From: Thiosulfatihalobacter marinus
GTDB lineage: Bacteria > Pseudomonadota > Alphaproteobacteria > Rhodobacterales > Rhodobacteraceae
Direction: 5' to 3'
DNA: 64,000 nucleotides
Assembly: GCF_016019955.1 (NCBI RefSeq)
Contig: NZ_JAECRZ010000001.1
Coordinates: 558,001 to 622,000 of the forward strand
Shown: one piece after another, positions 6,430 through 29,154 of the stretch
Numbering within the stretch: the stretch's first letter is position 1
Layout: each line of letters opens with the position of its first letter
Position numbers and translations under genes: made by a program
Notes under the pieces: model-generated
What the model was told of the DNA's origin: nothing
The model's input: only the letters and a program-made list of their open reading frames with translations
The model's database searches: none

Positions 6430-7563
6430 ATGAAATTTTCGAAACTGGCCGCGGCGGCGCTGGTTGCTGCGATGGCGACCGGCGCGCAGGCAGAGGTGAA
6501 GGTGGGCATGATCACCACCCTGTCAGGCGGTGGCGCGGGCCTTGGGATCGATGTGCGCGACGGCTTTATGCTGGCGGTGAAACAGGCCGGGCGCGATGAT
6601 CTGGAAGTGGTGATCGAGGATGATCAGCGCAAGCCGGATGTCGCCGTGCAACTGGCCGACAAGATGATCCAGTCCGAGAAGGTGGATGTGCTGACCGGGA
6701 TCATCTGGTCGAACCTGGCCATGGCCGTGGTGCCGGCCGCCACCGCGCAGGGCAAATTCTATCTGTCGCCCAATGCCGGGCCGTCGGCGCTGGCTGGAAA
6801 GGGCTGTCATCCCAACTATTTCAACGTGGCCTGGCAGAATGACAACCTGCACGAGGCGGCGGGCGCCTATGCCAATGACGCGGGTTTCGCGAACAGCTTT
6901 ATCATCGCGCCCAACTATCCGGCCGGCAAGGACGCGCTGACCGGGTACAAGCGGTTCTTCAAGGGCGATCTGGCGGGCGAGGTCTATACCAAGCTGGGCC
7001 AGACCGATTACGCGGCGGAAATCGCGCAGATCCGGGCCAGCGGCGCGGACAGCGTGTTCTTTTTCCTGCCCGGCGGCATGGGGATTTCCTTTCTCAAGCA
7101 ATATGCCGACAGCGGTGTCGACCTGCCGGTGGTTGGCCCGGCCTTCAGCTTTGACCAGGGCATCTTGCAGGCCGTGGGCGACGCGGCGCTGGGGGTGAAG
7201 AACACCAGCCAGTGGAACAAGGATATCGACAACCCGGCCAACATGGCCTTTGTCGCGAGTTTCCAGGCGGAATACGGGCGGTTGCCGTCGCTTTACGCCA
7301 GCCAGGGCTTTGACACGGCGAACCTGCTGATCTCGGCCATGGACAAGGCGGATGTGAAGGACGCGGAGGCGTTTCGCGCCGCGCTGAAGGCGGCAGAGTT
7401 CGATTCGGTGCGGGGCGATTTTGCCTTTGGCAACAACCAGCACCCGATTCAGGACATCTATGTGCGCGAAGTGATCAAGGAGGGCGATGTCTATACCAAC
7501 AGGATCATCGCCACCGGTCTCAAAGACCATGCGGATGCCTATGCGGCCGAGTGCAACATGTAA
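6430..7563 (+). CDS. Orphan ABC substrate-binding protein, branched-chain amino acid (type I) class
   Basis: This 377-residue periplasmic binding protein starts with a Sec signal peptide, with cleavage likely after AMATGAQA at about residue 21. The mature part begins EVKVGMITTLSGGGAGLG and follows the LivK/peripla_BP_6 layout: DQRKPDVAVQLADKMI, TGIIWSNLAMAVVPAATAQGKFYLSPNAG, and a C-terminal lobe with GFDTANLLISAM. Start choice: ATG 6430 has GAGGGAG 8 bases upstream. No permease or ATPase gene is adjacent; the nearest Liv-type set (17567-20833) has its own binding protein. It may be a second receptor for that importer or work with one elsewhere. Family ligands include aromatic and cyclic acids. 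Confidence 0.85.
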   Translation: MKFSKLAAAALVAAMATGAQAEVKVGMITTLSGGGAGLGIDVRDGFMLAVKQAGRDDLEVVIEDDQRKPDVAVQLADKMIQSEKVDVLTGIIWSNLAMAVVPAATAQGKFYLSPNAGPSALAGKGCHPNYFNVAWQNDNLHEAAGAYANDAGFANSFIIAPNYPAGKDALTGYKRFFKGDLAGEVYTKLGQTDYAAEIAQIRASGADSVFFFLPGGMGISFLKQYADSGVDLPVVGPAFSFDQGILQAVGDAALGVKNTSQWNKDIDNPANMAFVASFQAEYGRLPSLYASQGFDTANLLISAMDKADVKDAEAFRAALKAAEFDSVRGDFAFGNNQHPIQDIYVREVIKEGDVYTNRIIATGLKDHADAYAAECNM

Positions 7564-7573
7564 GTCATCAGGG

Positions 7574-7596
7574 CCGGGGCGCCGCGCGCGCCCCGG
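7574..7596 (+). terminator. GC-rich hairpin after the orphan binding protein
   Basis: CCGGGGCGC (7574-7582) pairs perfectly with GCGCCCCGG (7588-7596) across a 5-base loop, 11 bases after the stop at 7563 and between convergent genes. No T run follows, so it is more likely a transcript-end stabiliser or weak bidirectional terminator. Confidence 0.55.
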
Positions 7597-7629
7597 TATT
7601 CACCCGGTCTTTATCCGGTCTTCATCCGC

Positions 7630-8742
7630 TCAGGCGCCCGGTTCGGGCAGTTTCGGCGCGGTTTTGTCCAGCGCCAGTTCGGCATCGGAAAAGCGCCACG
7701 GGCCGCGCACGCCGCGCACCCCTTCAGGATCGATCACCATGCCCCGCGCCGCGATCTGGGGATCGTTCAGCGCCTCGCCCACGGAATTGATCGGGCCGGC
7801 GGGGAGGGTGGCGGCCTCCAGGTCTTGCAGCAGATCGGCACTGGAAAACCGCCTGGTTTCCGCTTCCAGCGCGGGGGTGAGCGCGTCGCGGTTGGCGACG
7901 CGCAACCGGTTGGTGGCATAGTCGGGGTGGGTGCCAAGGTCGGGGCGGGAGAGCACGTCACAGAGACGGCGGAACTGGCTGTCATTGCCGACGGCGATGA
8001 TGATATGGCCATCGGCGGTGGGCACCACCTGGTAGGGCGCGATATTGGGGTGGGCGTTGCCCCGGCGCGCGGGGCTGGTGCCGGTGGCGAGATAGTTCAT
8101 CGCCTGGTTGGCCAGCATCGCCGTGGCGCAATCCAGCAGCGACATGTCGATATGCTGGCCGCGCCCGGTGCTGTGGCGCTGTTCAACCGCCGCCAGAATG
8201 CCGATCGTGCCATAAAGCCCGGTGACAACATCGGTGACGGCCACACCCACTTTTTGCGGCTGGCGGTCGGGTTCGCCGGTGATCGACATCAGGCCGGAAA
8301 TGCCCTGGATCATGAAATCGTACCCGGCGCGGGCGGCATAGGGGCCGTCCTGTCCGAAACCGGTGATGGAACAGTAGATCAGGCGCGGGTTCAGGGCGGA
8401 CAGGCTGGAATAGTCCAGCCCGTATCTGGCCAGCCCGCCGACCTTGAAATTCTCGATCAGGATATCGGCATCGGCCACCAGATCGCGCAGCTGTTGCTGA
8501 CCGTGGGCGGTGCGAAAGTCGATGACAACCGAGGATTTGCCGCGATTGGCGGCGTAGAAATAGGCCGCCGTGCTGTCGCCGTCCCGTTCGATGAAGGGCG
8601 GGCCCCATTTGCGCGTGTCGTCGCCCTCGGGGGATTCGACCTTGATCACCTCGGCGCCCAGATCGGCAAGCGATTGCCCGATCCACGGACCGGCCAGAAT
8701 GCGGGCGAGTTCGATGACTTTCAGTCCTTGGAGCGGTTTCAT
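7630..8742 (-). CDS. CaiB/BaiF family CoA-transferase (possible glutarate CoA-transferase)
   Basis: This is a 370-residue class III CoA-transferase, opening with MKPLQGLKVIELARILAGPW, LADLGAEVIKVE and NRGKSSVVIDF. Asp171 in VTDVVTGLYG matches the position of the catalytic aspartate of this family (Asp169 in formyl-CoA transferase). Such enzymes move CoA between carboxylic acids. The reading frame sits 12 bases downstream of an XRE-cupin regulator, and both face glutaryl-CoA dehydrogenase across one promoter region. Since succinyl-CoA:glutarate CoA-transferases belong to this family, I infer that it activates glutarate for GcdH. The specificity is inferred from context only. Confidence 0.85.
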   Translation of the reverse strand: MKPLQGLKVIELARILAGPWIGQSLADLGAEVIKVESPEGDDTRKWGPPFIERDGDSTAAYFYAANRGKSSVVIDFRTAHGQQQLRDLVADADILIENFKVGGLARYGLDYSSLSALNPRLIYCSITGFGQDGPYAARAGYDFMIQGISGLMSITGEPDRQPQKVGVAVTDVVTGLYGTIGILAAVEQRHSTGRGQHIDMSLLDCATAMLANQAMNYLATGTSPARRGNAHPNIAPYQVVPTADGHIIIAVGNDSQFRRLCDVLSRPDLGTHPDYATNRLRVANRDALTPALEAETRRFSSADLLQDLEAATLPAGPINSVGEALNDPQIAARGMVIDPEGVRGVRGPWRFSDAELALDKTAPKLPEPGA

Positions 8743-8754: not shown

Positions 8755-9324
8755 CTAAAGATACGGAGGGGTGCAGGCGGAAATGACGATGGCCGGAGCA
8801 TCGGACAGGTTGCGGAAGCGATGCGGCGCGCGGCTGTCAAAGAGATAGGCATCCCCGGCGCGCAGGGTGCGGCTTTCGGTGCCCACGGTTACGTCGATTT
8901 CGCCCGAAACAACGATGCCGCCCTCGTGGGCGTCATGGGCCAGCATGGTGTCGCCGGTGTCGGCACCCGGCTCGTAGCGTTCGTGCAGGATTTGCAGCCC
9001 GTGCGCGCGGGCGTCGCCCACCTGTTTGAGTGTCATGCGCGCGTCACCGCTGGGATAAAGGCGCGAGGTAAGATCGGAAAGGTCATCGGCGCGGAAAAAA
9101 GGCGACGTGCGCGCCGGGCTGTCGGGCTCGAAAAACTCGGCCATGCCAAGGCCAAGCCCCCCCAGGATCTTGCGCAGGCTGGCCACCGACGGGCTGGAGC
9201 GGTTGGTTTCGATCATCGAGATCTGCCCATGCGGCACCCCGGCGGCCTCGGCCAGCTGGCGCTGGGACAGGCGGTGGGCCTGGCGCAGCGCGCGCAGACG
9301 ATTGCCGGTGTCGAACTCTTCCAT
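8755..9324 (-). CDS. XRE-family transcriptional regulator with cupin sensor domain
   Basis: This 189-residue repressor-type protein has an N-terminal Cro/CI helix-turn-helix (RLRALRQAHRLSQRQLAEAA, then ISMIETNRSSPSVASLRKIL) and a C-terminal cupin barrel (GGIVVSGEIDVTVG, GDAYLFDSRAPHRFRNLSD). HTH-plus-cupin regulators sense a small acid or amine with the cupin and control neighbouring catabolic genes. It lies 12 bases upstream of the CoA-transferase gene and divergent from gcdH, so both transcripts are plausible targets. A candidate operator is described at 9360-9417. Confidence 0.88.
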   Translation of the reverse strand: MEEFDTGNRLRALRQAHRLSQRQLAEAAGVPHGQISMIETNRSSPSVASLRKILGGLGLGMAEFFEPDSPARTSPFFRADDLSDLTSRLYPSGDARMTLKQVGDARAHGLQILHERYEPGADTGDTMLAHDAHEGGIVVSGEIDVTVGTESRTLRAGDAYLFDSRAPHRFRNLSDAPAIVISACTPPYL

Positions 9325-9463: not shown

Positions 9464-10678
9464 ATGGCCAAGGATCTTGCACCGCAATCCAAACCCGACC
9501 TCGGGTCGTTCAACTGGGACGATCCGTTCCTGCTGGAAACCCAGCTGGAAGAGGATGAGCGTATGGTGCGGGATGCCGCGCGCGCCTATTGCGACGAAAA
9601 GCTGGCGCCGCGTGTCACGGCGGCGTTCGAGACCGAGCACACCGATCCGGAAATCTTTGCCGAGATGGGCGAAATGGGGTTGTTGGGCACCACCATCCCC
9701 GAAGCCTATGGCGGGATTGGCGCGAATTACGTGACCTATGGATTGGTGGCGCGCGAGGTGGAGCGGGTGGATAGCGGCTATCGGTCGATGATGTCGGTGC
9801 AAAGCTCGCTGGTGATGTATCCGATCTATGCCTATGGCTCGGAGGAACAGCGCCAAAAATACCTGCCCAGGCTGGCCAGCGGCGAATGGATCGGCTGTTT
9901 CGGACTGACCGAACCGGATGCCGGATCGGACCCGGCGGGGATGAAGACCGTCGCGAAAAAGACCGATGGCGGCTATGTGCTGAACGGTGCGAAGATGTGG
10001 ATTTCCAACGCGCCGATTGCGGATGTGTTCGTGGTATGGGCGAAATCCGAGGCGCATGGCGGCAAGATCCGGGGCTTTGTTCTGGAAAAGGGCATGACGG
10101 GGCTGAGCGCGCCCAAGATCATGCACAAGGCATCGTTGCGCGCGTCGATCACCGGCGAGATCGTGATGGAGAATGTCGAGGTGGGCGAGGATGCGTTGTT
10201 GCCGGATGTCGAGGGGCTGAAGGGGCCGTTCGGCTGTTTGAACCGGGCGCGCTATGGCATTGCCTGGGGCGCGATGGGGGCGGCGGAATTCTGTTGGCAC
10301 GCGGCGCGGCAATACGGGCTGGACCGCAAGCAGTTCAGGAAGCCGCTGGCGCAGACGCAGCTGTTTCAGCTGAAGCTGGCGAATATGCAGACCGAGATCA
10401 CGCTGGGGCTTCAGGCGGCATTGCGGGTGGGGCGGCTGATGGACGAGGCCAATGCCGCGCCCGAGATGATCTCGCTGATCAAGCGCAACAATTGCGGCAA
10501 GGCGCTGGAGATCGCGCGCCAGTCGCGGGACATGCATGGCGGCAACGGGATCAGCCTGGAATTTGGCGTGATCCGGCATATGGTGAACCTGGAAACGGTG
10601 AACACCTATGAGGGCACGCATGACGTGCACGCGCTGATCCTGGGCCGGGCGCAGACCGGGTTGCAGGCGTTTTTCTGA
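9464..10678 (+). CDS. gcdH: Glutaryl-CoA dehydrogenase
   Basis: This is a 404-residue FAD flavoprotein of the acyl-CoA dehydrogenase superfamily that converts glutaryl-CoA to crotonyl-CoA and CO2. Family-specific residues are visible. [20 protein letters not shown] contains the substrate-binding Arg region, [17 protein letters not shown] the flavin loop, and [20 protein letters not shown] supplies the catalytic Glu in YEGT together with the GCDH-type C-terminus. ATG 9464 is chosen because AAAGGGGG precedes it; an upstream in-frame TTG lacks this. The gene faces the XRE-cupin/CoA-transferase pair, pointing to glutarate (or lysine, tryptophan or heteroaromatic) breakdown. Confidence 0.95.
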
Positions 10679-10842: not shown

Positions 10843-12006
10843 ATGCTGGGATTTGACGCGATCACGTCGGGCGATCTGTATTTCAACGACACGCACCACA
10901 TGCTGCGCGCACAGCTGCGCCGGTTCGTGGCCGAAGAGATCAAACCCTATGCCGATCAATGGGAAATTGACGGGCTGACGCCGCGCGCATTGTTGCGGCA
11001 GATGGGGGAGTTGGGATTCCTTGGTATCCGCTATCCAGAGGCCTTTGGCGGCTCGGACATGGATCAGATGGCCTCGGTTGTGTTGGCCGAGGAGCTGGGG
11101 CGCTGCACCTATGCCGGCGTGGCCATCACGGCGCTGGTGCATACGGACATGGCCTCGGTGCACATTTTCAACGCCGGGAGCGCGGCGCAGAAGGCCGCGT
11201 GGCTGCCGCGCTGCATTGCGGGCGAGGTGATCACGGCGGTGGCGGTGACGGAACCGGGGGCCGGTTCGGATGTGAAGGGCATCCGCACAACGGCGCGACG
11301 GGACGGGGATGTGTTTGTTCTGAACGGTACAAAAATGTTCATTACCAACGGGGTACACGGCGATCTTTACTGTGTGGCGGCCAAGACCGGGGGCGAGAGG
11401 GCAAGCCAGAGCGTGACCATGTTTCTGGTGGAGAAGGGCACGCCCGGTTTCACCGTGTCGCGGGCGCTGGACAAACATGGCTGGCGCAGTTCGGATACGG
11501 CGGAGCTGTCGTTTGCGGATGCGCGGGTGCCCGCGGAAAACGTGCTGGGGGTCGAGGGGCGCGGATTTTACGAGATCATGAAGAATTTCCAGAACGAGCG
11601 GCTGGTTCTGGGGGCGATGTGTCTGGGAGAGGCGCAGGCGGCGATGGAGATGACGCTGGACTATCTGCGCGCCCGATCGGCCTTTGGGGCGCCGTTATGG
11701 GAGAAACAGGCCATTCGCCAGCGCATGGCTGCGCTTGCGGCGCGGATCGAGGCAGCGCGGCACCTGGTCTACGGGACGGCGGCGCGCGCCGCAAAGGGGG
11801 CGGACGTGGTGCGCGAGGTGTCGATGATCAAGGCGCTGTGTGGCGAGCTGGTGAACGATGTGATGTATGCGTGCGTTCAGTTCCACGGCGGCATGGGGTT
11901 CATGCGCGAGAGCCCGATCGAGCGCATGGCGCGGGATGCGCGGGTGCAAAGCATCGGAGGGGGCGCCACCGAAGTGATGCTGGAAGAGGTGGCCAGGCGG
12001 CTTTAG
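10843..12006 (+). CDS. Acyl-CoA dehydrogenase (isovaleryl/long-chain-like subgroup)
   Basis: This 387-residue FAD enzyme oxidises an acyl-CoA to the 2-enoyl-CoA and passes electrons to ETF. AVTEPGAGSDVKGIRTTA and NGTKMFITNG are the flavin- and substrate-binding blocks. The C-terminus reads IGGGATEVMLEE rather than the YEGT type, and NFQNERLVLG holds a Glu where isovaleryl- and long-chain enzymes keep their catalytic base. So it probably belongs to that subgroup, not to GcdH. AGGGGAGG lies upstream of ATG 10843. Its stop overlaps the convergent hyuB stop by 4 bases. It may dehydrogenate a CoA-bound ring-cleavage product; this is inference. Confidence 0.88.
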   Translation: MLGFDAITSGDLYFNDTHHMLRAQLRRFVAEEIKPYADQWEIDGLTPRALLRQMGELGFLGIRYPEAFGGSDMDQMASVVLAEELGRCTYAGVAITALVHTDMASVHIFNAGSAAQKAAWLPRCIAGEVITAVAVTEPGAGSDVKGIRTTARRDGDVFVLNGTKMFITNGVHGDLYCVAAKTGGERASQSVTMFLVEKGTPGFTVSRALDKHGWRSSDTAELSFADARVPAENVLGVEGRGFYEIMKNFQNERLVLGAMCLGEAQAAMEMTLDYLRARSAFGAPLWEKQAIRQRMAALAARIEAARHLVYGTAARAAKGADVVREVSMIKALCGELVNDVMYACVQFHGGMGFMRESPIERMARDARVQSIGGGATEVMLEEVARRL

Positions 12007-13739
12007 CCGCGCAGGCGGGCGGTTTCCGTAGCATCGATTTCAGGCGGGGTGCCGGTGAGGGCGACACCAAAGAGCTCGCGCGCCTGATCGGGCGTGTAGC
12101 GGCCAAGGCGCACGTCTTCGCACACGGCCTGGGGCGGGCGGGTGAGCGGATCGCCATAGCCGCCGCCGCCCGGTGTACGCACATGCACGCGGTCGCCCGC
12201 GCGGAGCGGGATGTCCTGTTCCTTGGAGAGATGCGGCGGCGTATGGGGCTGGCCGTTGCGCGTGACGGTCACGCGGTTCACGCCGCCATCCGCGCCGCCC
12301 AGAACGCCCTGCGGGCCAAAGCGGCCGTGATCCATCACGAAACTGGCCAGCGCCGTGCCCCGGCGCAGTTCGACCTCGTAATCAATGCCGAAGCCACCGC
12401 GATGACAACCCGCGCCGCCCGAGCCTTCGTGCAGGGCGTAGCGGTGGTAGAGCACCGGAAAGGCCTGTTCCATGATCTCGACCGGGGGGGCCTTGGAAAT
12501 GCCGATGGTGGAGCAGCCGTTGGAAAGGCCGTCATGGGTGGCGTTGCCGCCGTAACCGCCACCGGAAATCTGGTACATGACAAAATCGCGCCCGCGCGCC
12601 GGGTCATGGCCGCCAAGGGCGAAATTGCCGCTGGTTCCGGCTGGCGCGGCGGTGACACGATCGGGCAGGGCGGGGACGAGCGCGGCAAAGACCGCTTCGG
12701 CAATGCGTTGCGAAACTTCGGCGGCGCAGCCCGAGACCGGGCGGGGGTAATGGGCATCCAGAAAGGTGTTTTCGATGCCTCTGACGCGCAGCGGTTCGAA
12801 CGCCCCGGCGCTCATCGGGACTTCGGGGAAGATGTGGCGCATGGCAAGATAGACCGCCGACAGGGTTGTGGCGCGCACCGAGTTCATCGGGCCCATGCAG
12901 GGCGGGCTGGATCCTGCGAAGTCGAACACCAGATCGGGGCCGTCGCGGAACACGGTCAGATTGATCGCGAGCGGTTCGTTGACCACGCCGTCGCTGTCGA
13001 TCCAGGCGGTCGCGCTGTGGCGGCCCCGGGGGATGTCGGCGATGAAGGCGCGCATCTGGGTGGCGGCGCGGCGGCGCAATTCGGCAATGGCCTGGGCCAC
13101 GTCGTCGTCGCCGTAGCGATCCATCAGCGCGTTCAGGCGGTCTTCGCCCACCAGCAGCGCGGCGGCCTGGGCCTGAACGTCGCCGATACGCTGATCGGCC
13201 ACGCGGATATTGGAACAGATGATGGAAAAGATTTCGCTGTCCAGTTCGCCCTGTTTGAACAGGCGCACCGGGGGCAGGCGCAGCCCTTCCTGTTCCACCG
13301 CCGTGGCCGAGGCCGAAAACCCGCCGGGCACCGCGCCGCCGGTGTCGGGCCAGTGGCCGGTATTGGAGAGCCAGCAGAACAGTTTGCCGCCGCGATAGAA
13401 GGGTTTGGCAAAGCGCACATCCATCAGGTGCGTGCCGCCCAGATAGGGATCGTTGACGATATAGATGTCACCGGGTTGCGGTGGTGGGGTCTTGCCGTTT
13501 GCGATGCGCTCGATCAGCACGCGGGTGGAATATTGCATGGTGCCCACGAAGACGGGCAATCCGCCCGCGCCCTGCGCGATCAGCGCGCCATCGCGGGCGG
13601 CATAGATACCGTCGGAGCGGTCATTGGCCTCGGCGATGACGGGGGAGAAGGCGGCGCGCGAAAATGACAGGTCCATCTCGTCGCAAACCTGTTGCAGCCC
13701 GGCCTGGATGACGGTGAGGGTGATGGGATCAAGGGTCAT
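12003..13739 (-). CDS. hyuB: Hydantoinase/oxoprolinase subunit B
   Basis: This is a 578-residue HyuB-family protein. N-terminal LDPITLTVIQAGLQQVCDEM, NDPYLGGTHLMD (the family metal/substrate loop), TAAPAGTSGNFALGG and the C-terminal TPGGGGYGDP are diagnostic. With HyuA it forms an ATP-dependent amidohydrolase or carboxylase of the N-methylhydantoinase, 5-oxoprolinase and acetophenone/acetone carboxylase superfamily, typically opening a cyclic amide. Its ATG lies inside the hyuA 3' end (11-base overlap), showing translational coupling. In this island a lactam produced by ring hydroxylation and reduction would be a natural substrate; that is inference. Confidence 0.92.
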   Translation of the reverse strand: MTLDPITLTVIQAGLQQVCDEMDLSFSRAAFSPVIAEANDRSDGIYAARDGALIAQGAGGLPVFVGTMQYSTRVLIERIANGKTPPPQPGDIYIVNDPYLGGTHLMDVRFAKPFYRGGKLFCWLSNTGHWPDTGGAVPGGFSASATAVEQEGLRLPPVRLFKQGELDSEIFSIICSNIRVADQRIGDVQAQAAALLVGEDRLNALMDRYGDDDVAQAIAELRRRAATQMRAFIADIPRGRHSATAWIDSDGVVNEPLAINLTVFRDGPDLVFDFAGSSPPCMGPMNSVRATTLSAVYLAMRHIFPEVPMSAGAFEPLRVRGIENTFLDAHYPRPVSGCAAEVSQRIAEAVFAALVPALPDRVTAAPAGTSGNFALGGHDPARGRDFVMYQISGGGYGGNATHDGLSNGCSTIGISKAPPVEIMEQAFPVLYHRYALHEGSGGAGCHRGGFGIDYEVELRRGTALASFVMDHGRFGPQGVLGGADGGVNRVTVTRNGQPHTPPHLSKEQDIPLRAGDRVHVRTPGGGGYGDPLTRPPQAVCEDVRLGRYTPDQARELFGVALTGTPPEIDATETARLRG

Positions 13740-20919: not shown

Positions 20920-21350
20920 GTCAGCTTGCGCAACAACAGCAGGAACACCGCCCGTTCGCCCTCGGTCAGGGGCGCGAGTGTGGATGCGGTGATCTCCTGG
21001 GCGCGGGGCAGGAGCCGGTCATAGGCGGCCCAGGCCGCGGCGGTGGGTTTGAGCAAAAGCCGCCGCTGATCCGTCGGATCGGGCTTGTCGGCGACAAAGC
21101 CCTTGCGGCGCAGCCGATCGACCACCCCCTTGATCGTGGCTGCATCCATCGCGGTGGCACGGCCCAGGGCATTCTGGGAAATCTCGCCCAGTTCGCACAG
21201 CTTGGCCAGGGCGGCGAACTGGGTGGGCGTCAGTTCCGGGATCAGGCTGGCGAACAGGGCCAGGTGGCGCTGGTTGGCGCGGCGCATGACAAAGCCCACC
21301 TGATCGTCCAGTTTATAGTCAATCGGGTCGGTTGCGGCGGGCGCGGTCAT
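20916..21350 (-). CDS. MarR-family transcriptional regulator
   Basis: This is a 144-residue dimeric winged-helix regulator. ELTPTQFAALAKLCELGEISQNALGRATAMDAATIKGVVDRLRRKGFV is the recognition region, and KPDPTDQRRLLLKPT is the wing. ATG 21350 has AAGGA 8 bases upstream; the open frame extends much farther but without conserved sequence. It is divergent from the molybdenum hydroxylase operon, and a palindrome over that promoter (21401-21417) is the likely operator. The stop TAG lies within CTAG at the edge of the hairpin element. MarR proteins of such clusters usually sense an aromatic substrate or its CoA ester. Confidence 0.9.
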   Translation of the reverse strand: MTAPAATDPIDYKLDDQVGFVMRRANQRHLALFASLIPELTPTQFAALAKLCELGEISQNALGRATAMDAATIKGVVDRLRRKGFVADKPDPTDQRRLLLKPTAAAWAAYDRLLPRAQEITASTLAPLTEGERAVFLLLLRKLT

Positions 21351-21423: not shown

Positions 21424-21461
21424 CAATATGGATCACCCCGGAAACAGGGTGGGAGGCCAGA

Positions 21462-22304
21462 ATGGGGATATATCACCGCCCATGCAACCTCGAAGACGCG
21501 CTGTGGGTATTGGCCGGGGGCGGGGTGACGATTGCGGCCGGGTGCACGGATCTGTTTGCGGCGACGGACGCGCCGGAACTGGCGGGGCCGGTTCTGGACA
21601 TCACCGCGCTTGACGCGTTGCGCGGAGTGCAGGCGACGGCCGAGGGCTGGCGGATTGGCGCGGCAACCCCCTGGGCGGAGATTGCCCGCGCGCCCTTGCC
21701 GGGCGGGTTTGACATGTTGCGGGCGGCCGCGCGCGAGGTGGGGTCGGTGCAGATCCAGAATGCCGCTACGGTGGCCGGCAACCTGTGCAACGCCTCGCCC
21801 GCCGCCGATGGCGTGCCGGCGTTGCTGGCGCTGGAGGCGGAGGTCGAACTGGCCTCGGTTCGGGGGCGGCGGCGGGTGCGGCTGGAGGATTTTCTGACCG
21901 GGGTGCGGCAGACGGCACTGGCGGGCGATGAAATGGTGCTGGCGGTGCATGTGCCGCGCCATGGCGCAGATGGGCAGAGCCGGTTTTTGAAGCTGGGCGC
22001 GCGCCGCTATATGGTGATCTCGATTGCCATGGTGGCCGTGCGTGTGGTGTTGACGCAGGACCGTATCGACAGGGCGGCCATTGCCGTGGGCGCGTGCAGC
22101 CCGGTGGCGCGCCGCCTGCCGGCGGTTGAGGCGGCGCTTGCCGGGCTGCCCCTGGCCAGGGCGGCGGGCGCGGTGGATGCGGCCGCAATTGGCGCGGCGC
22201 TGGATCCGATCACCGACATGCGCGCCGGGGCGGGCTATCGCGGCGCGGCGGCGGGCGAATTGGTGCGGCGGGCCTTGCGGGAAATTGCCGGAGGGGCGTC
22301 ATGA
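21462..22304 (+). CDS. Molybdenum hydroxylase FAD-binding subunit (xanthine dehydrogenase family, medium subunit)
   Basis: This 280-residue subunit carries FAD. GGGVTIAAGCTDLFA (residues 20-34) is the PCMH-type flavin loop, and VGSVQIQNAATVAGNLCNASPAADGVPALLAL is the second flavin motif of CoxM/XdhB proteins. GGGAGG precedes ATG 21462. It overlaps the fused Fe-S/molybdenum subunit by 4 bases (ATGA). It should take electrons from the [2Fe-2S] clusters of that subunit and pass them to an acceptor. The cofactor set fits hydroxylation of an electron-poor ring carbon with water as the oxygen source. Confidence 0.9.
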   Translation: MGIYHRPCNLEDALWVLAGGGVTIAAGCTDLFAATDAPELAGPVLDITALDALRGVQATAEGWRIGAATPWAEIARAPLPGGFDMLRAAAREVGSVQIQNAATVAGNLCNASPAADGVPALLALEAEVELASVRGRRRVRLEDFLTGVRQTALAGDEMVLAVHVPRHGADGQSRFLKLGARRYMVISIAMVAVRVVLTQDRIDRAAIAVGACSPVARRLPAVEAALAGLPLARAAGAVDAAAIGAALDPITDMRAGAGYRGAAAGELVRRALREIAGGAS

Positions 22305-25027
22305 AGGACGAGGTGGGTATTCCGCTGATCGTGAACGGAACCCCTTGCCAGGTTTCGGCAGGGCCGGGGCGGCGGCTGTCGCAGGTGCTGCGCGAGGATC
22401 TGGGTTTGCGCGGCACCAAGGTGGGCTGTGACGCGGGCGATTGCGGGGCCTGTTCGGTGCTGATGGATGGGGCGGTGACTTGCGCCTGTCTGATGCCGGT
22501 TGCCCAGGCGGCGGGGCGCGCGGTGGAAACTGTCGAGGCGTTGGGACCGGGGGGGCCTGATGCGTTGCAGCGCGCCTTTCTGCGCCACGGGGCGGCGCAG
22601 TGCGGGATTTGCACGCCAGGCATGTTGATGGCGGCGACGGCGTTGATCCGGCGCAGCCCGGCCCCGACGCGGGCCGAGGTGGAGGAGGCGCTTGGGGGCG
22701 TTCTGTGCCGGTGCACCGGCTATGCCAGGATCGTGGATGCGGTGATGGATGTGGCCGGAGCGGCGTCTGGTCCGGTGCCTGGGCGGGGCGCGGCGGTGGG
22801 CGCGTCTGTCGAGCGGCTGGACGGTGTGCCCAAGGTGCTTGGGACCGAACGGTTCGGGGCTGACGAGGTGCCCGAGGGCGCGCTGTTGGTGCGGGCGGTG
22901 CGATCGCCCCATGCCCATGCGGGATTTCATTTTGGCGATCTGGCGGCCTGGTCCGCGCGCCATGGCGTGGAGGTGTTCACCGCCGCTGATATTCCCGGTG
23001 ACAACCGGTTCAGCGTGATCCCGGCCTTTGCCGATCAGCCGGCGCTGGCCGATGGTGTGGCGCGGATGCGCGGCGAGGCTGTGGCGGTGGTGGCCGGTGC
23101 GCCAGAGGTGATCGAAGCGCTGGAATTCGGCGACTTTCCGGTGACATGGGAGCCGCGGGAGGCGCTGGAGGATGCGTGTGCGGCGCAAGGCGACGGCGTA
23201 GCGCGGATACATGCGGATCGCGCGGGCAACGTGCTGATCAAGGGGCATGTCAGGACCGGCGATCCGCTGGGCGCGCTGGACGGGGCGGCGCATGTGGTGG
23301 CGCGCGAGATCGAGACCGGCTGGGTGGAACATGCCTATATCGAGCCCGAGGCCGGTGTTGCCTGGATGGAGGGCGATGTTCTGAATATCCGGGCCTGCAC
23401 ACAGGCGCCGGTGATGGACCGCGATGACACGGCGCGGGTGCTGGGCCTGCCGCCTGGGCGGGTGCGGATACGCCCTGCGGCCACGGGGGGCGGGTTTGGC
23501 GCAAAGCTGGACCTGTCGCTGCAACCGCTGATCGGGCTGGTGACGCTGAAGACCGGGCGCCCGGCGCGCATGGTCTTTACCCGGCGCGAGAGCATGGCGG
23601 CGACCACGAAACGCCATCCTGCCAGGATGCGCGCGCGGATCGGTGCCGATGCCGGCGGACGCCTGTGCGGGATGTGGTTTGACGGGGATTTTGATACCGG
23701 CGCCTATGCCAGCTGGGGGCCGACAGTGGCGGTGCGGGTGCCGGTTCATGCGTCGGGGCCGTATAAGGTGCCCCATTACCGGGCCGAGGCGCGGGCGGTG
23801 CATACCAACGGGCCGGTGGCGGGCGCGTTTCGCGGCTTTGGCGTGCCGCAGGCGGCGATCTTGCAGGAAACGATGTTTGACGAACTGGCGGATGCGGTCG
23901 GGCTGGATCGGCTGGAGTTTCGCCGGGTAAACGCGCTGCGCGACGGGCAGGCGAGCGTATGCGGACAGGTGTTGCAGGGCGTTGGCATCGCGGCCTGTCT
24001 GGAGGCATTGCAGGAGGAGTGGCGCGCCGGATCGGCGCGGGTGGCGGCGTTCAATGCGAAAGGTGGCGACATGAGACGGGGGCTGGGCGTGGCCAGTTGC
24101 TGGTATGGGTGTGGCAACACGGCGCTGCCCAACCCCTCGACGATCCGTATTGGCGTGACCCCGGCGGGCGCGGTGCGGCTGCATCAGGGGGCAATGGATA
24201 TCGGGCAGGGCGCCAACACGGTGATTGCGCAGATCGCGGCGGATGCGCTGGGGCTGCCGGTGCATGCGCTGGAGCTGGTGGATGCCGATACCGCGCAGAC
24301 GCCCGATTGCGGCAAGACCTCTGCCAGCCGACAGACCGTGGTGACGGGCAATGCCGCGTTGCGCGCCGGGCAGGCGTTGCGTGCTCGGATACTGGCGCTG
24401 ACCAATATGGGGGATGGCGCGCGGCTGGCGCTGGAGAACGGCACGCTGGTGGTGAGCGATGGCGCGCGGCGCGCGGTGGTGGAGCCGGCCCGGCTGTCGG
24501 TGGGGCCGCTGGGCTATGTGCTGGTGGCCGAGGAAACCTATGATCCGCCGACGCAGGCGTTGGACGAGAACGGGCAGGGCGCGCCCTATGCGGTCTATGG
24601 GTATGGCGCGCAGATGGCCGAGTTGGAGGTGGATACAAGGCTGGGCACGGTGAGGGTGCTGCGCATGGTGGCGGCGCATGATCTGGGCCGGGTGATCAAT
24701 CCGCAACTGGCCGAAGGGCAGATCGAGGGCGGAATCGCGCAGGGGCTGGGGCTTGCGCTGATGGAGGAATATGTGCCGGGGCGCACGGACAATCTGCATG
24801 ATTATCTGATCCCGACAGTGGGCGACATGCCCGAAATCCGCTCGATCCTGATCGAGGTGCCGGACCCCGAAGGGCCGATGGGCGCCAAGGGGCTGGGCGA
24901 ACATGTGCTGATCCCCACGGCACCGGCGATCTTGAACGCGATCCGCCATGCCTGCGGAGCACGGATCACGCGGTTGCCGGCGCGGCCCGACCGGGTGCTG
25001 GCGGCGATACGGGAGGCGGAGTCATGA
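22301..25027 (+). CDS. Molybdenum hydroxylase, fused [2Fe-2S] and molybdopterin subunit
   Basis: This 908-residue protein joins the small and large subunits of the xanthine dehydrogenase family. Cys43, 48, 51 and 63 form the plant-type [2Fe-2S] site. Cys101, 104, 136 and 138 form the second cluster (CGICTPGM, CRCTGY). From about residue 165 to the end is the molybdenum domain, with GGGFGAKLD, GAFRGFGVPQ and the catalytic Glu867 in GAKGLGEH. Nicotinate, isoquinoline and aldehyde oxidoreductases share this fold. The Phe/Arg substrate residues of true xanthine dehydrogenase cannot be assigned by eye. The neighbouring 6-hydroxynicotinate reductase-like gene points to an N-heteroaromatic acid. Confidence 0.9.
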   Translation: MKDEVGIPLIVNGTPCQVSAGPGRRLSQVLREDLGLRGTKVGCDAGDCGACSVLMDGAVTCACLMPVAQAAGRAVETVEALGPGGPDALQRAFLRHGAAQCGICTPGMLMAATALIRRSPAPTRAEVEEALGGVLCRCTGYARIVDAVMDVAGAASGPVPGRGAAVGASVERLDGVPKVLGTERFGADEVPEGALLVRAVRSPHAHAGFHFGDLAAWSARHGVEVFTAADIPGDNRFSVIPAFADQPALADGVARMRGEAVAVVAGAPEVIEALEFGDFPVTWEPREALEDACAAQGDGVARIHADRAGNVLIKGHVRTGDPLGALDGAAHVVAREIETGWVEHAYIEPEAGVAWMEGDVLNIRACTQAPVMDRDDTARVLGLPPGRVRIRPAATGGGFGAKLDLSLQPLIGLVTLKTGRPARMVFTRRESMAATTKRHPARMRARIGADAGGRLCGMWFDGDFDTGAYASWGPTVAVRVPVHASGPYKVPHYRAEARAVHTNGPVAGAFRGFGVPQAAILQETMFDELADAVGLDRLEFRRVNALRDGQASVCGQVLQGVGIAACLEALQEEWRAGSARVAAFNAKGGDMRRGLGVASCWYGCGNTALPNPSTIRIGVTPAGAVRLHQGAMDIGQGANTVIAQIAADALGLPVHALELVDADTAQTPDCGKTSASRQTVVTGNAALRAGQALRARILALTNMGDGARLALENGTLVVSDGARRAVVEPARLSVGPLGYVLVAEETYDPPTQALDENGQGAPYAVYGYGAQMAELEVDTRLGTVRVLRMVAAHDLGRVINPQLAEGQIEGGIAQGLGLALMEEYVPGRTDNLHDYLIPTVGDMPEIRSILIEVPDPEGPMGAKGLGEHVLIPTAPAILNAIRHACGARITRLPARPDRVLAAIREAES

Positions 25028-25202: not shown

Positions 25203-26651
25203 GTGAGCGAACGCGTGCGCGAGGAAAAGATCCGCTGCGATGCCTGCCCGGTGATGTGCTACATCGCCGAGGGCAGGATCGGCGCCTGTGACCGCTATGC
25301 CAATGATGGCGGGCGGATCGTGCGCTGTGATCCGCTGACCGTGCTGGACCGGGCCATTGCGGATGGGCGCGAGCTGCGCCCGTTCTTGCAGGCCGATTGG
25401 GACGGGCGGCTGGAAATGGATGACCTGTTTGTCACCGCGGTGGGCGCGGGCACCACCTATCCCGATTACAAACCCGCGCCCTTTCTTGTCAGCCGCGAGG
25501 TGGATGGCGCGGATTTCGTGACCGTCGTGACCGAGGCGATCTTCAGTTATTGCGGGGTCAAGGTGAAGATCGACACGGACCGTCATCTGGGCCACGAGGG
25601 CGCGGTGGTGCGCCATGCGGGCGAGGCGGTGGGGCTGATGATCACCAGCGAATATGGTAGCCAGATGATGAGCCTGGGCGGGGTGGATCACCTGACCGGG
25701 GGCTCCAAGCCCGAGGGGCGCGTTACCTGCGATGTGCTGATGCGGCTGTGCAATCGAGAGGCGGTGGAGCTGGCGGTGGACGGGGGCGCGACGGTGATCG
25801 TGCAGGCCGGGCAGGCGCCGATCGTCGATGGGCATCGCGAAGAGCGGATGCGTGTGGGATGCGGTTCGGCCACGATCGGCATGTTCGCCAGCCAGTGGCA
25901 GGGGCTGGTGGACGAGGTGGTCGTGGTGGATGATCACATCACCGGCGTGGTCAGCGAGCATCAGGCGGGCAAGGTGCTGGGCTGGCCCGATACCGGCATT
26001 CGCGTCAAGGGCCGACGTTCAACGCCGGGGCGGTATTTCCAGGTGGCGGCGCCGGGACTGGGTTGGGGAGGCACCGATATCGAGGATCCTTTGACCATTC
26101 TGGGGGACTGGCTGCCCAAAAAGGGCGCGCGGCCCGGTCTGACGCTGTTGATGGTGTCCACCACGGGCGAGCAATACGGCTATTACGTGCTGGACGATGA
26201 TCTTGTGCCGCAAAAACGCCCGTTGCCGCACGCGTTGAAACCTTCGGTGGATCTGATTGCCGAGAATTGTGAGCCCGCCCTGTGCACGGTGATGTTCATG
26301 GGGGGTGCTGGCGGGTCGTTGCGTTCGGGGGTGACGAAAAACCCGGTGCGGCTGACGCGGTCGGTGCAGGCGCGGCGCACCTGTGTGACGGTGGGTGGGG
26401 CCGAGGCCTATGTCTGGCCCGGCGGCGGCATCACGCTGATGGCGGATGTCACGCGGATGCCCGACAATTCCTTTGGCTATGTGCCCACCCCGGCGATTGT
26501 CGCGCCGCTGGAATTTACCGTGCCGCGCGAGGAATACCGTGCGCTTGGCGGGCATGACGGCGCGGTGCGCTCGTTGGAGGATGTGCTGGAACATGGCGGC
26601 GAATACGGCAAGGACATGCGCGCGGTGCCCGACAAGGGCGAGGACCCTTGA
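25203..26651 (+). CDS. 6-hydroxynicotinate reductase-like Fe-S protein
   Basis: This is a 482-residue protein resembling 6-hydroxynicotinate reductase, the dearomatising ferredoxin-dependent enzyme of nicotinate fermentation. Cys12, 15, 19 and 29 (CDACPVMC, then GACDRY) form an N-terminal [4Fe-4S]-type site. YGVKVKIDTDRHLG-like and GSATIGMFASQWQGLVDEVVVVDDHITGV segments follow. Near the C-terminus GGSLRSGVTKNP (Thr378) resembles the S-G-A-T flavinylation site of NqrC and RnfG. GTG 25203 has GGGAGG upstream. Its stop overlaps the UPF0280 start. The assigned reaction rests on family recall and on the adjacent molybdenum hydroxylase; the real ring could differ. Confidence 0.7.
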   Translation: MSERVREEKIRCDACPVMCYIAEGRIGACDRYANDGGRIVRCDPLTVLDRAIADGRELRPFLQADWDGRLEMDDLFVTAVGAGTTYPDYKPAPFLVSREVDGADFVTVVTEAIFSYCGVKVKIDTDRHLGHEGAVVRHAGEAVGLMITSEYGSQMMSLGGVDHLTGGSKPEGRVTCDVLMRLCNREAVELAVDGGATVIVQAGQAPIVDGHREERMRVGCGSATIGMFASQWQGLVDEVVVVDDHITGVVSEHQAGKVLGWPDTGIRVKGRRSTPGRYFQVAAPGLGWGGTDIEDPLTILGDWLPKKGARPGLTLLMVSTTGEQYGYYVLDDDLVPQKRPLPHALKPSVDLIAENCEPALCTVMFMGGAGGSLRSGVTKNPVRLTRSVQARRTCVTVGGAEAYVWPGGGITLMADVTRMPDNSFGYVPTPAIVAPLEFTVPREEYRALGGHDGAVRSLEDVLEHGGEYGKDMRAVPDKGEDP

Positions 26652-27496
26652 GCGTGGGGGCGCAGGCGGCATTGCTGGGCGATGGGCGGCGGCTGCATCT
26701 GCATCACGGGCCGATTGACCTGATTGTCGATGTAACCGGGCCAGGGCGCGAAGCAGCGCTGCGCGCGGTGGTGGCGCGGTTTGATGGCATTTTGCAGGAA
26801 TTGGTTGATGATCTGGACATGCTGCGCCAGCCCGTGAAAAAATGCAAAGGCCCGCTGGGCCCGGTGGCGGCGCGGATGCGGGCGGTGTCTGCCCGGTTCC
26901 TGCCGGAATTCGTGACCCCGATGGCCGCGGTGGCGGGTGCGGTGGCGGATGAAATGGCGCGGGTGATCGCGCAGGTTGGCGGGATCGACACGGCCTATGT
27001 GAACAACGGCGGCGATGTGGCGCTGGTGATTGGCGAGGGGCACGGGTTGACGGCGGAACTTGGCGGTGGCGTCCGCACGCGGATTGGTTCGCTCAGCCCG
27101 GTGCGCGGGGTGGCGACATCGGGTTGGCGGGGGCGCAGCCTGTCATTTGGCATTGCCGATGCGGTGACAGTACTGGCCGCCAGCGCCGCAGAGGCGGATG
27201 TGGCGGCGACGCTGATCGCCAACCATGTAAACCTGCCCGGGCATCCCGCCATAACTCGCGACCGCGCGGTTGACATATGGCCCGACAGCGATCTGGGGGC
27301 GCGGCGCGTGACCACTGGTGTGGGCCCATTGCGCGATGAAGACGTGGGCGCGGCGCTTGCGGCGGGAGCGGCCTATGCCGAGACCTGCAAGGCGCGCGGG
27401 CTGATCGAGGGCGCGTGGCTGTGTTTGAACGGTGCAACGCGCCATTGTGGGGCAGATGCCCTTTTGTTTGACCGGAAGGAGGCGGAACATGCCTGA
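26648..27496 (+). CDS. UPF0280 family protein (ApbE superfamily)
   Basis: This is a 282-residue cytosolic protein of the UPF0280 family, which belongs to the ApbE flavin-transferase superfamily. Visible blocks are ILQELVDDLDMLRQPV, VTPMAAVAGAVADEMARVI, AYVNNGGDVALVIG (the ApbE-like Asn-Gly-Gly-Asp loop) and GVATSGWRGRSLSFGIADAVTVLA (the metal/FAD site region, with Asp following GIA). It overlaps the reductase gene by 4 bases and the next gene by 8. ApbE enzymes attach FMN to Thr through a phosphodiester, so a role in flavinylating the reductase next door is a reasonable inference; a catalytic role in the pathway is the alternative. Confidence 0.8.
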   Translation: MSVGAQAALLGDGRRLHLHHGPIDLIVDVTGPGREAALRAVVARFDGILQELVDDLDMLRQPVKKCKGPLGPVAARMRAVSARFLPEFVTPMAAVAGAVADEMARVIAQVGGIDTAYVNNGGDVALVIGEGHGLTAELGGGVRTRIGSLSPVRGVATSGWRGRSLSFGIADAVTVLAASAAEADVAATLIANHVNLPGHPAITRDRAVDIWPDSDLGARRVTTGVGPLRDEDVGAALAAGAAYAETCKARGLIEGAWLCLNGATRHCGADALLFDRKEAEHA

Positions 27497-28070
27497 ATTC
27501 ACCCTGCGCAAGACGATGGTTTTTGTGGAGGACATCCATCACGATGGCGGCCCGGCGGCCGACACCCCGCGCCGGCGCGCGGCGATTGTGGCGCTGGTGA
27601 AGAACCCGTTTGCGGGGCGCTTTGTCGAGGATCTGCAATCGGCGATGGAGGATCTGAAGCCTTTGGGGCTGGAGATGACCGACCGGCTGATCGAGGCCAT
27701 GGGCGGGATCGCGGGTATCGACGGCTATGGCAAGGCCGGGCTGGCCGGGGAGGGGGGCGAACTGGAACATACGGCGCTGTGGCACGTGCCCGGTGGCTAT
27801 GCCATGCGCGCCCGGCTGGGCGAGGCAAAGGCGATTGTGCCCTCGTCGATGAAGATCGGCGGGGTGGGCACGCGGATCGACATTCCGCTGGGCCATATCA
27901 ACGCGGCCTATGTGCGCAGCCATTTCGACGGTATGGAGGTGGGCGTTCCGGATGGACCGAAGGCGGATGAATTGCTGTTTGCGCTGGCGATGAGCCGGGG
28001 CGGACGCATTCATCACCGTATGGGGGGCTTGCAGGCCGAAGACGTGACCGGCGCCGACGGTTTGCGCTGA
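27489..28070 (+). CDS. AA_synth (DUF1185) family protein
   Basis: This is a 193-residue protein of the family named 'amino acid synthesis' without a proven reaction. KTMVFVEDIHHDGG at the N-terminus, ALVKNPFAGRFVEDL, GYGKAGLAGEGGELEHTALWHVPGGYAMR and PSSMKIGGVGTRIDIPLGHINAAYVRSHFDGM are highly conserved-looking stretches rich in Gly, His and acidic residues, suggestive of an enzyme active site. It overlaps UPF0280 by 8 bases, so the two are translationally coupled to each other and to the reductase. Its place in the operon suggests a ring-opening or isomerising step on the reduced heterocycle. This is inference. Confidence 0.8.
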   Translation: MPEFTLRKTMVFVEDIHHDGGPAADTPRRRAAIVALVKNPFAGRFVEDLQSAMEDLKPLGLEMTDRLIEAMGGIAGIDGYGKAGLAGEGGELEHTALWHVPGGYAMRARLGEAKAIVPSSMKIGGVGTRIDIPLGHINAAYVRSHFDGMEVGVPDGPKADELLFALAMSRGGRIHHRMGGLQAEDVTGADGLR

Positions 28071-28146
28071 GGCCGGCACTGGCGCTGACTGGCGGGGCGG
28101 TTTATCCTGTCCGCATTGGGTAAATGAATTTGACGGGGGCGTTCAG

Positions 28147-29154
28147 GTGGCAGGTTATATCCGGGCATCGGTATTGGAGGGGCTGGACAAGATCGCGGCA
28201 CGCGAAAAACAGGATCTGACCCCGATATTGGCGCGTTATGGCCTGGACAGTTCGATATTCCGGGCCTGTGAAACCGAGGTTGATTTCGAGGACATGTGCA
28301 TGATCCTGGAGGATTGCGCGCGCACCTGGAAGATGCCGGATCTGGGTATCCGGCTGGCCCGCCTGCATTCGCTGGATACCTTGGGCGTGGTGAGCCTTGT
28401 GACTCGTATGGAAACCACAGTGCGCACGGCGGCGCTGGCCCTGTTGCGGTTTCAGTTCCTGCACACCAACGGAGCGGTGAGTTCGCTGCGAGAAATCCCC
28501 GAGGACGGACTGGCCGAGGTGATCTATGCGCCCGTGTCGATCACGCGACCGCGCCAGGCCCGCGAGATGTCGCTGGTGATGGGGCGCAACGTGCTGCGCG
28601 ACCTGGCCGGGCGGGCGCCGGATATTCTGTCGGCGGAGGTGATGTTTGCGGCGCCGTTGGGCAAGGACCATCTTGCCGCCGAACTGGGCTGCCCGGTGCG
28701 CTATGGCGGCAATAGCTATTCCTTTCTGTTCCGTCGGGACATTCTGGACCTGCGCCTGAAAAAACAGGATGTCGCCTTTCACCCGATCATCCGGCGCTAT
28801 CTGGCCGAAATCGAACTGGAAAAGGGCGTGCCTTTTGCAGAGACCGTGCGGCTGGAGGTGTTCCGGCAACTGTCCCTGGGCGTGTGTTCGCAGGACAAGG
28901 TGGCGGCGGCAATGAAGATGCAACCCCGCTCGCTTCAGCGCAGACTGAAGCAGGAGGGCACGAATTTCCGCGAAATCATGGACGAACAGCGCCGCCGCCG
29001 GTCGCTGGCCCTGGTGCAACAGACCGACCTGCCGCTGGGCGAAGTGGCGCTGGCGGTGGGCTATTCGGACCAGACCGCGTTCAATCAGGCGTTTCGCCGC
29101 TGGTTTGGCAAGACGCCGCTAAAGGTCAGACGGCACGCGGGGTTGATGGCCTAG
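28147..29154 (+). CDS. AraC-family regulator with OruR/ArgR-type N-terminal domain
   Basis: This is a 335-residue activator. The N-terminal 190 residues form an arabinose-binding-like ligand domain of the OruR type (DFEDMCMILEDCARTWKMPDLGIRLAR). The C-terminal 100 hold two helix-turn-helices (VAAAMKMQPRSLQRRLKQEGTNF, then LPLGEVALAVGYSDQTAFNQAFRRWFG). It starts at GTG 28147, 76 bases after the heteroaromatic operon, and probably controls it. Its stop codon TAG lies inside CTAG at the left edge of the element at 29151-29418; the reconstructed empty site preserves the same stop. Confidence 0.9.
   Translation: MAGYIRASVLEGLDKIAAREKQDLTPILARYGLDSSIFRACETEVDFEDMCMILEDCARTWKMPDLGIRLARLHSLDTLGVVSLVTRMETTVRTAALALLRFQFLHTNGAVSSLREIPEDGLAEVIYAPVSITRPRQAREMSLVMGRNVLRDLAGRAPDILSAEVMFAAPLGKDHLAAELGCPVRYGGNSYSFLFRRDILDLRLKKQDVAFHPIIRRYLAEIELEKGVPFAETVRLEVFRQLSLGVCSQDKVAAAMKMQPRSLQRRLKQEGTNFREIMDEQRRRRSLALVQQTDLPLGEVALAVGYSDQTAFNQAFRRWFGKTPLKVRRHAGLMA

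Follow-up and report, generated by a model that had tools for sequence, protein, structure and literature searches.

A putative reductive nicotinate catabolism cluster in Thiosulfatihalobacter marinus, with an ATP-dependent lactamase pair probably taking the place of enamidase

The closest described counterparts of the locus reported here are reductive routes of nicotinate breakdown. In the fermentation of Eubacterium barkeri, encoded by ndh-hnr-ena (Protein Data Bank [PDB] codes 3hrd and 2vun), a bifunctional enamidase opens the ring, and the same route, termed anaerobic, is given for Azorhizobium caulinodans (PMC9304392). The clusters of A. caulinodans and Bradyrhizobiaceae (AZC_2804-2790 and blr3818-3830) are described as encoding the first three E. 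barkeri steps (PMC3511419), and carbon is published to pass through 1,4,5,6-tetrahydro-6-oxonicotinate (THON) and glutarate in aerobic Azorhizobium. The window analyzed here, a stretch of 64,000 nucleotides of Thiosulfatihalobacter marinus (contig NZ_JAECRZ010000001.1, positions 558,001 to 622,000), carries between its positions 6,430 and 29,154 a homologue of 6-hydroxynicotinate reductase (HNR) together with a molybdenum hydroxylase and HyuAB, a two-subunit lactamase. On comparative grounds, we assign this cluster, with a probability of roughly 0.7, to nicotinate catabolism by the reductive Azorhizobium/E. barkeri-type route, with HyuAB replacing the enamidase. It resembles the E. barkeri fermentation in the hydroxylase and reductase steps and the Azorhizobium/Bradyrhizobiaceae clusters in the predicted reductive route via THON and glutarate (PMC3511419). 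It differs from the fermentation in that the genome of the window (99.8% complete) holds a HyuA orthologue and no enamidase match at E ≤ 1e-30, no 2-methyleneglutarate branch was recognized in the island, and the route probably ends at glutaryl-CoA.

In the predicted pathway, the importer SBP2-LivHMGF would take up nicotinate, the flavin adenine dinucleotide (FAD) and iron-sulfur (FeS)-molybdenum subunits of the hydroxylase would convert it to 6-hydroxynicotinate, HNR would reduce this to THON with low-potential electrons, and HyuAB would open the THON lactam with ATP, instead of the usual enamidase. Loss of ammonia from the ring-opened enamine would then produce 2-formylglutarate, which decarboxylation and oxidation would turn into glutarate, and a CoA-transferase and GcdH would carry glutarate through glutaryl-CoA to crotonyl-CoA. 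UPF0280 is predicted to mature HNR, perhaps by attaching a covalent flavin, and DUF1185 to act just after ring opening. A sequence-only reading had proposed the order of hydroxylation, dearomatization, lactam opening by HyuAB, and exit at glutaryl-CoA, which comparative genomics supports well, and all of the gene families that it named are present by gene calling and the Pfam and NCBIfam scans on which the island gene identities are based. Its suggestion that a reductive route would be new to an aerobe falls, such a route having already been published for Azorhizobium and Bradyrhizobiaceae. The core module consists of the Liv-type importer, MarR, the two-subunit hydroxylase, HNR, UPF0280, DUF1185, and HyuAB, encoded as follows (the starts of HyuA, DUF1185, SBP2, and GcdH were corrected by inspection).

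12003..13739, minus strand: HyuB, hydrolytic subunit of the ATP-dependent lactamase and candidate ring opener (PF02538, 3.8e-154)
~13729..15792, minus strand: HyuA, ATP-binding lactamase subunit, 687 amino acids (aa) after start correction (PF01968, PF05378)
~16197..17480, plus strand: SBP2, importer substrate-binding protein with a Tat-type leader by eye (PF13458, 6.9e-47)
17567..20833, plus strand: LivHMGF, permeases and ATPases of the ATP-binding cassette (ABC) importer
~20916..21350, minus strand: MarR regulator, transcribed divergently to the hydroxylase genes (PF01047, covering residues 244-301 in an over-long open reading frame [ORF])
~21462..22304, plus strand: FAD subunit of the molybdenum hydroxylase (PF00941, 1.5e-36; PF03450, 5.7e-15)
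22301..25027, plus strand: fused [2Fe-2S] and molybdopterin subunit of the hydroxylase, 908 aa (PF20256, PF02738, PF01799, PF00111)
25203..26651, plus strand: HNR, 6-hydroxynicotinate-reductase homologue by orthology, presumed Fe-S flavoenzyme
26648..27496, plus strand: UPF0280/COG2122, ApbE-superfamily partner of HNR and candidate flavin transferase
~27489..28070, plus strand: DUF1185 (AA_synth; PF06684, 3.8e-68; solved relatives 3byq and 2qtp)

The apparent MarR ORF (20916-21962, 348 aa) overshoots the true gene by about 200 residues, and its N-terminal portion runs antisense to the FAD-subunit gene. The sequence-only reading recognized the molybdenum hydroxylase and missed its two-gene make-up, overlooking the FAD subunit because this long antisense ORF covers its gene.

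Our comparisons drew on four collections: (i) 10 relatives of the window, with a neighborhood of up to 40 kb each; (ii) a class-wide set of 30 loci of 9 to 20 kb centered on HNR; (iii) a named set of 80 loci closest by identity, hence biased; and (iv) a class sample of 289 Alphaproteobacteria, 44 with HNR (E ≤ 1e-20, all matches at least 390 bits) and 245 without. The loci of sets ii and iii span only about 10 kb on either side of HNR. Mutual exclusion of HyuAB and enamidase is, with the co-occurrence of UPF0280 and HNR, the strongest result. Some HNR clusters hold an amidohydrolase whose match to 2vun, the enamidase of E. barkeri, stands at 2.7e-114, well clear of every other match. A census of 56 HNR-positive genomes (17 of the 18 from a separate search and 42 of the 44 in the class sample, 3 being common to both; G032 and the incomplete genomes G098 and G260 were left out) accepted orthologues at ≥71% identity for enamidase (next best, 41%) and ≥57% for HyuA (best in enamidase genomes, 48%); it found enamidase in 21 genomes, HyuA in 35, both in none, and neither in none. 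Outside the census, G098 has HyuA and no enamidase. Near HNR itself, the opener was enamidase in 6, HyuA or HyuB in 13, both in none, and neither in 11 of the class loci; the corresponding counts for the named loci were 0, 22, 0, and 58. Across the class sample, HyuA occurs in 26/44 HNR-positive versus 3/245 HNR-negative genomes (Fisher p 4e-22, uncorrected for kinship) and enamidase in 17/44 versus 1/245. An orthologue of either opener without HNR was seen in G148, G251, and G116. In a phylum sample of 374 genomes, only 2 of the 28 with HNR are non-alphaproteobacterial, both of the enamidase type, and on a Comamonadaceae plasmid a gene near HNR is annotated as an amidohydrolase.

Simple p-values are inflated by kinship among the genomes, and we place weight on repeated switches and the absence of exceptions. 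In an HNR phylogeny covering 54 census genomes (G156, with no locus, and G265, with a partial one, were left out), opener state changes seven times, and well-supported branches force at least five of these changes; with shuffled labels, the mean number of changes rises to 16.4, so that opener state also clusters by lineage. Enamidase-type G244 and HyuA-type G138 form a sister pair with 100/100 support. No alignment column cleanly separates the opener types among 455 columns of HNR (20 and 34 rows of the two types), 900 of the hydroxylase (13 and 24), and 268 of the FAD subunit (13 and 25); the lowest overlaps were 0.26, 0.17, and 0.32, respectively, and the hydroxylase column at 0.17 corresponds to residue 124, which belongs to the FeS part and lies outside the Mo domain. 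The exclusion in 56 genomes would also be explained if HyuAB-type clusters degraded another N-heteroaromatic, such as a pyridine carboxylate or nicotinate derivative, with HyuAB marking the changed substrate, and relatives of HyuAB accept diverse lactams (PMC8453981). We consider this unlikely, given that the two opener types are interspersed in the HNR tree, that no HNR or hydroxylase position tracks them cleanly, and that two enamidase clusters (G199 and G071) have importer receptors sharing 73% and 70% identity, respectively, with SBP2 of the window. The simplest reading of the mutual exclusion, the repeated switches, the lack of a type-tracking column, and the common receptor is that HyuAB does the job of the enamidase, and from these comparisons it probably takes the enamidase's place in window-type clusters.

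The protein pair itself has the features of known lactamases. HyuA carries the ATP-site motifs DVGGTFTDL, DMGGTSTDV, and GATPGP, and H104/D107/H129 of HyuB have the spacing of CapB His99/Asp102/His124 (an HxxD...H metal site), both kinds of motif having been described for caprolactamase (PMC8453981). HyuAB thus resembles CapAB and OplAB in its two subunits, ATP-binding motifs, and metal site; it differs from CapAB in its best NCBIfam scores (CapA, 470 bits; CapB, 302 bits), far under the caprolactamase cutoff of 1000, and from both pairs in having HNR as its genomic partner. OplAB opens six-membered lactams, including delta-valerolactam (PMC11033972). This activity would suit a scheme in which HNR reduces the ring to a saturated delta-lactam (6-oxopiperidine-3-carboxylate), HyuAB opens this valerolactam-like ring, and an aminotransferase later removes the nitrogen; we judge it improbable, as no HNR position tracks opener type cleanly and no aminotransferase recurs among the labeled HNR-neighborhood families (many small families being unlabeled). 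For the preferred reading, with HyuAB opening THON, a literature search of titles and abstract openings, in which subscription literature was thinly covered, returned nothing among the matches listed that links HyuAB or UPF0280 to nicotinate, and both the ring-opener swap and the UPF0280-HNR co-occurrence seem to be new.

The hydroxylase, too, occurs in two types. The fused subunit of the window matches nicotinate dehydrogenase (3hrd_A, 1.3e-75) among many relatives, its closest solved chains being aldehyde oxidoreductases, and has GLGE near residue 869. The alternative type combines a separate small FeS subunit with a large subunit bearing three CXXCH heme motifs and is found in all eight stretches of one family of large genomes (f159), both non-alphaproteobacterial genomes, and the Comamonadaceae plasmid. 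Five of the eight f159 stretches and both non-alphaproteobacterial ones include enamidase, in contrast to the window with its HyuAB and FAD plus FeS-Mo hydroxylase. Judging by these 11 CXXCH-type loci (L216, L217, L224-L228, L233-L235, and L246), the first enzyme of the pathway, and not only its ring opener, is subject to swapping. The nicotinate hydroxylase of Azorhizobium is membrane bound and cytochrome linked, and the CXXCH type is consistent with it by analogy. Two hydroxylase types feeding one reductase suggest one common product, which would be 6-hydroxynicotinate, and the enamidase suggests THON as the intermediate in enamidase-type clusters; nicotinate is the predicted substrate of the window cluster.

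Several observations weigh against this assignment. The nicotinate substrate and the enamidase step are carried over from other organisms, and the lactam that HyuAB opens could be one reduced in another way. The absence of an opener within reach of HNR in 11/30 class loci means that the link is often genomic rather than local, and in G231 both enamidase and DUF1185 lie far from HNR on the contig. The matched stretch contains one in-frame stop in each of 4/35 HyuA genes (G314, G100, G127, and G115), HyuA occurs without HNR (as a full-length orthologue in G148 and G251 and a partial one in G161), and G260, which has HNR and is 70% complete, has neither opener. Five HNR-positive genomes, all HyuA-type, lack DUF1185, and three close relatives have none within 40 kb. 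Linkage of the terminal genes is loose, with GcdH (≥90% identity) in 4/10 relatives and the CoA-transferase (≥80%) in 3/10. Finally, the window's own genome has no 2-oxoacid:ferredoxin oxidoreductase closer than 28%.

UPF0280 is the tightest-linked partner of HNR: it is present in exactly those 44 of the 289 sampled Alphaproteobacteria that have HNR, and a family otherwise tied to homocysteine synthesis thereby gains a constant redox partner in this sample. The sequence-only reading had listed UPF0280 and AA_synth, correctly as to their presence, and had given neither a role. UPF0280 has the whole-domain fold of the ApbE flavin transferases, and its D184/T188 (a D-x3-T pair), invariant in 58 rows, aligns to ApbE D256/T260, which we take to be metal ligands. 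The characterized 6-hydroxynicotinate reductase reportedly holds a covalent flavin, according to a 2006 study of E. barkeri. Because of the ApbE fold, the strict co-occurrence with HNR, and this reported covalent flavin, UPF0280 is a candidate flavin transferase for HNR, at about even odds. Two findings count against this role. The invariant ApbE histidine (H228 of A4), which is catalytic, has no conserved histidine counterpart in the UPF0280 profile alignment, a difference from ApbE/Ftp despite the common fold and D-x3-T pair. COG2122 relatives (DVU1097, 2o34), which share the same fold and pair, act in homocysteine synthesis (PMC5764234), unlike the window UPF0280 with its strict HNR co-occurrence. 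UPF0280 might instead handle sulfur for HNR (persulfide or Fe-S maturation), as proposed for the COG2122 relatives; we rate this a serious contender at somewhat below even odds, in keeping with the requirement of COG2122 together with DUF39 for homocysteine synthesis in Desulfovibrio, the missing histidine, and eight near-invariant HNR cysteines. A profile comparison of UPF0280 with HNR found no link. Four weak NF003322 matches in HNR-negative genomes comprise three frames that are divergent UPF0280-like by eye and a fourth (G143) inside a short-chain-dehydrogenase-like frame. Divergent UPF0280-like proteins of about 250 aa with a common RGRGR...LLRFGVS.WR-type tail, found in HNR-negative Alphaproteobacteria (L183, L184, and L186), are possibly a second, unstudied subfamily.

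At E ≤ 0.001, the HNR ORF has no match among the Pfam and NCBIfam families, and it is named by orthology: among 26 plasmid records with a match, 17 carry the name 6-hydroxynicotinate reductase. It forms a single orthologous group across the sampled Alphaproteobacteria (44/289); the window copy is 68 to 70% identical to five copies from f159 genomes (L200-L204), and the SG-6C and E. barkeri reductases are 42% identical (PMC3511419). The eight cysteines, with at most one deviating row each in 118 rows, fit Fe-S cluster ligands, and no single flavinylation site could be picked from the same alignment. A sequence search of the PDB gave no convincing relative (best E, 0.035, to flavodoxins), and a fold search with a model of moderate confidence (pLDDT 73.8) gave no PDB match at E ≤ 0.001 and was uninformative. 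Weak matches to GCV_T_C, the C-terminal barrel of the glycine-cleavage T-protein, appear in 38/55 members (best, 1.9e-4). Kinship with DUF39 (presumably PF01837) was rejected, no DUF39 model being among the seven families matched by 55 members at E ≤ 1. In one locus (L173 of G062), HNR is split over two consecutive frames. Genes for the ferredoxin oxidoreductase KorAB or for a ferredoxin-NADP reductase are present in some HNR clusters; KorAB (2-oxoacid:ferredoxin oxidoreductase) occurs in L163, L169, L175, and L176, three of which also carry a ferredoxin-reductase-like protein (in Pfam, Pyr_redox_2 only), and is a likely electron source for HNR in those clusters.

DUF1185 is present in 39 of the 44 HNR-positive and 17 of the 245 HNR-negative genomes, and all 17 enamidase-type HNR-positive genomes of the class sample have it. 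In G036 and G219, its immediate neighbor is enamidase, and in G236, G094, and G244, it is a distant paralogue of enamidase; in G231, DUF1185 lies far from enamidase. The solved relatives BB2672 and SPO0826 (3byq and 2qtp) belong to the same family, whose amino acid hint came from a likeness to the chorismate mutase fold and from branched-chain amino acid gene neighbors (PMC2954203); SPO0826 adjoins Liv-type ABC genes (same source), whereas the neighbors of the window DUF1185 are those of a heteroaromatic pathway. Because DUF1185 follows HNR in 39/44 genomes, its amino acid label looks doubtful, and a role as an amino-acid-biosynthesis enzyme is disfavored by this co-occurrence and the heteroaromatic neighbors. 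The homologue TgnF, from trigonelline breakdown, is said to stimulate succinate-semialdehyde oxidation, an effect that the same study did not obtain with its own homologue HcdD (PMC7913881). From its gene context, DUF1185 may act on the ring-opened product and is a candidate for the deamination or decarboxylation step.

Taken at its widest, the locus would exemplify a second architecture of reductive nicotinate catabolism, in which HyuAB repeatedly replaces the Fe-Zn enamidase, UPF0280 is a new cytosolic flavin transferase of HNR distinct from ApbE, and DUF1185 fills the gap in the pathway that follows ring opening (as a deaminase or decarboxylase at the 2-formyl-dicarboxylate stage). We offer this combination tentatively and regard it as rather unlikely. 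If it is true, three uncharacterized players would gain functions from one locus. The comparisons as a whole make of a vaguely defined heteroaromatic island a predicted pathway that is open to testing and occurs in many Alphaproteobacteria of sea and soil. THON is a predicted new substrate for ATP-dependent lactamases, in a clean and repeated nonorthologous swap with a characterized enzyme. The Pfam name "amino acid synthesis" of DUF1185 may mislead, and its annotation would change in many species.

Outside the core module, the 23-kb stretch encodes the following.

6433..7563, plus strand: SBP1, Liv-type periplasmic binding protein (PF13458, 1.9e-81)
7630..8742, minus strand: class III CoA-transferase, probable succinyl-CoA:glutarate CoA-transferase (PF02515, 3.1e-128; PDB codes 4ed9 and 9br7)
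8755..9324, minus strand: XRE-cupin regulator, PuuR-like (PF01381, PF07883; PuuR at 125 bits, under the cutoff)
9464..10678 (start ~9464), plus strand: GcdH, glutaryl-CoA dehydrogenase (PDB matches)
10843..12006, plus strand: ACAD2, second acyl-CoA dehydrogenase (PF00441, PF02771)
15942..16092, plus strand: frame ending in a membrane-protein gene remnant of ~30 aa (match to a sister-genome protein)
28147..29154, plus strand: AraC-type regulator, shared with the closest relatives only (PF12625, PF12833)

By sequence comparison, GcdH is firmly assigned: among its 14 matches in the PDB at E ≤ 1e-60, those ranked 2 to 10 are named glutaryl-CoA dehydrogenase (one "putative"), the first (4w9u, 8.3e-205) carrying the name acyl-CoA dehydrogenase. 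The top NCBIfam match of the CoA-transferase is succinate--glutarate CoA-transferase (528 bits; cutoff, 750). No aldehyde dehydrogenase was recognized among the island ORFs in the Pfam and NCBIfam scans.

These genes part company with the core. HNR, hydroxylase, and UPF0280 are each present in 10/10 relatives, DUF1185 and HyuAB in 7/10, SBP2-LivHMGF in 6/10, AraC in 2/10, and XRE-cupin and SBP1 in 1/10 (the SBP1 orthologue at 92%); no ACAD2 orthologue was found in the 10 neighborhoods, and truncation of the upstream side by contig ends in G023, G026, and G042 makes the counts for XRE-cupin, SBP1, and ACAD2 lower bounds. Among the class loci, UPF0280 is found in 29, the FAD subunit in 27, the hydroxylase (≥50%) in 26, DUF1185 in 19, and HyuA in 13, the sole locus without UPF0280 (L174) sitting on a 9-kb contig of a genome (G265) that has UPF0280 on another contig; the named loci give 77, 65, 70, 64, and 21, respectively. 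AraC, which adjoins DUF1185 in the window, appears in 0/80 named and 0/30 class loci. ACAD2, SBP1, and XRE-cupin appear in 0/110, which says little, as the window places them 13 to 19 kb from HNR, beyond the reach of these loci. GcdH and the CoA-transferase lie near HNR again in G244 and G138, which both belong to a single distant family; this hints independently at glutaryl-CoA as the product.

HNR, hydroxylase, UPF0280, HyuAB or enamidase, DUF1185, and the importer thus tend to travel together; ACAD2 and AraC look local, GcdH and the CoA-transferase look like looser neighbors, and SBP1 is probably part of a glutarate block outside the core. The single 23-kb unit of the sequence-only reading does not stand, conservation of its set running from 10/10 down to 0/10 by gene, and we reject a wholly coordinated island, as the GcdH block, ACAD2, AraC, and SBP1 are not generally conserved with the core. 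Separate conservation of the blocks, which that reading had named as telling against itself, holds for GcdH and ACAD2 and not for the HyuAB-reductase core. The loose linkage of these same genes to HNR in the loci examined would be expected if the 23 kb were a chance neighborhood of unrelated catabolic operons (hydantoin/lactam, glutarate/lysine, and heteroaromatic). We hold this to be very improbable, and it is disfavored for the core by the enrichment of HyuA in HNR-positive genomes, its place near HNR in 13/30 class loci, and the annotation of HyuAB beside HNR on a plasmid of Sagittula stellata.

Between HyuA and SBP2, the ~30 residues of the 15942-16092 remnant match the C terminus of a 468-aa membrane protein whose gene is whole at this position in sister genomes, and the rest of this gene seems to have been lost from the window by deletion. 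HNR is patchy in the host genus (9/25 genomes listed, the window's own included). It was also found on 26 plasmid records (Sulfitobacter, 12; Rhizobium, 4; and others), of which 23 were typed as nonmobilizable, 2 as mobilizable, and 1, that of S. stellata, as conjugative; on the last, the HyuAB-type cluster is compact and includes a ferredoxin-NADP reductase of its own.

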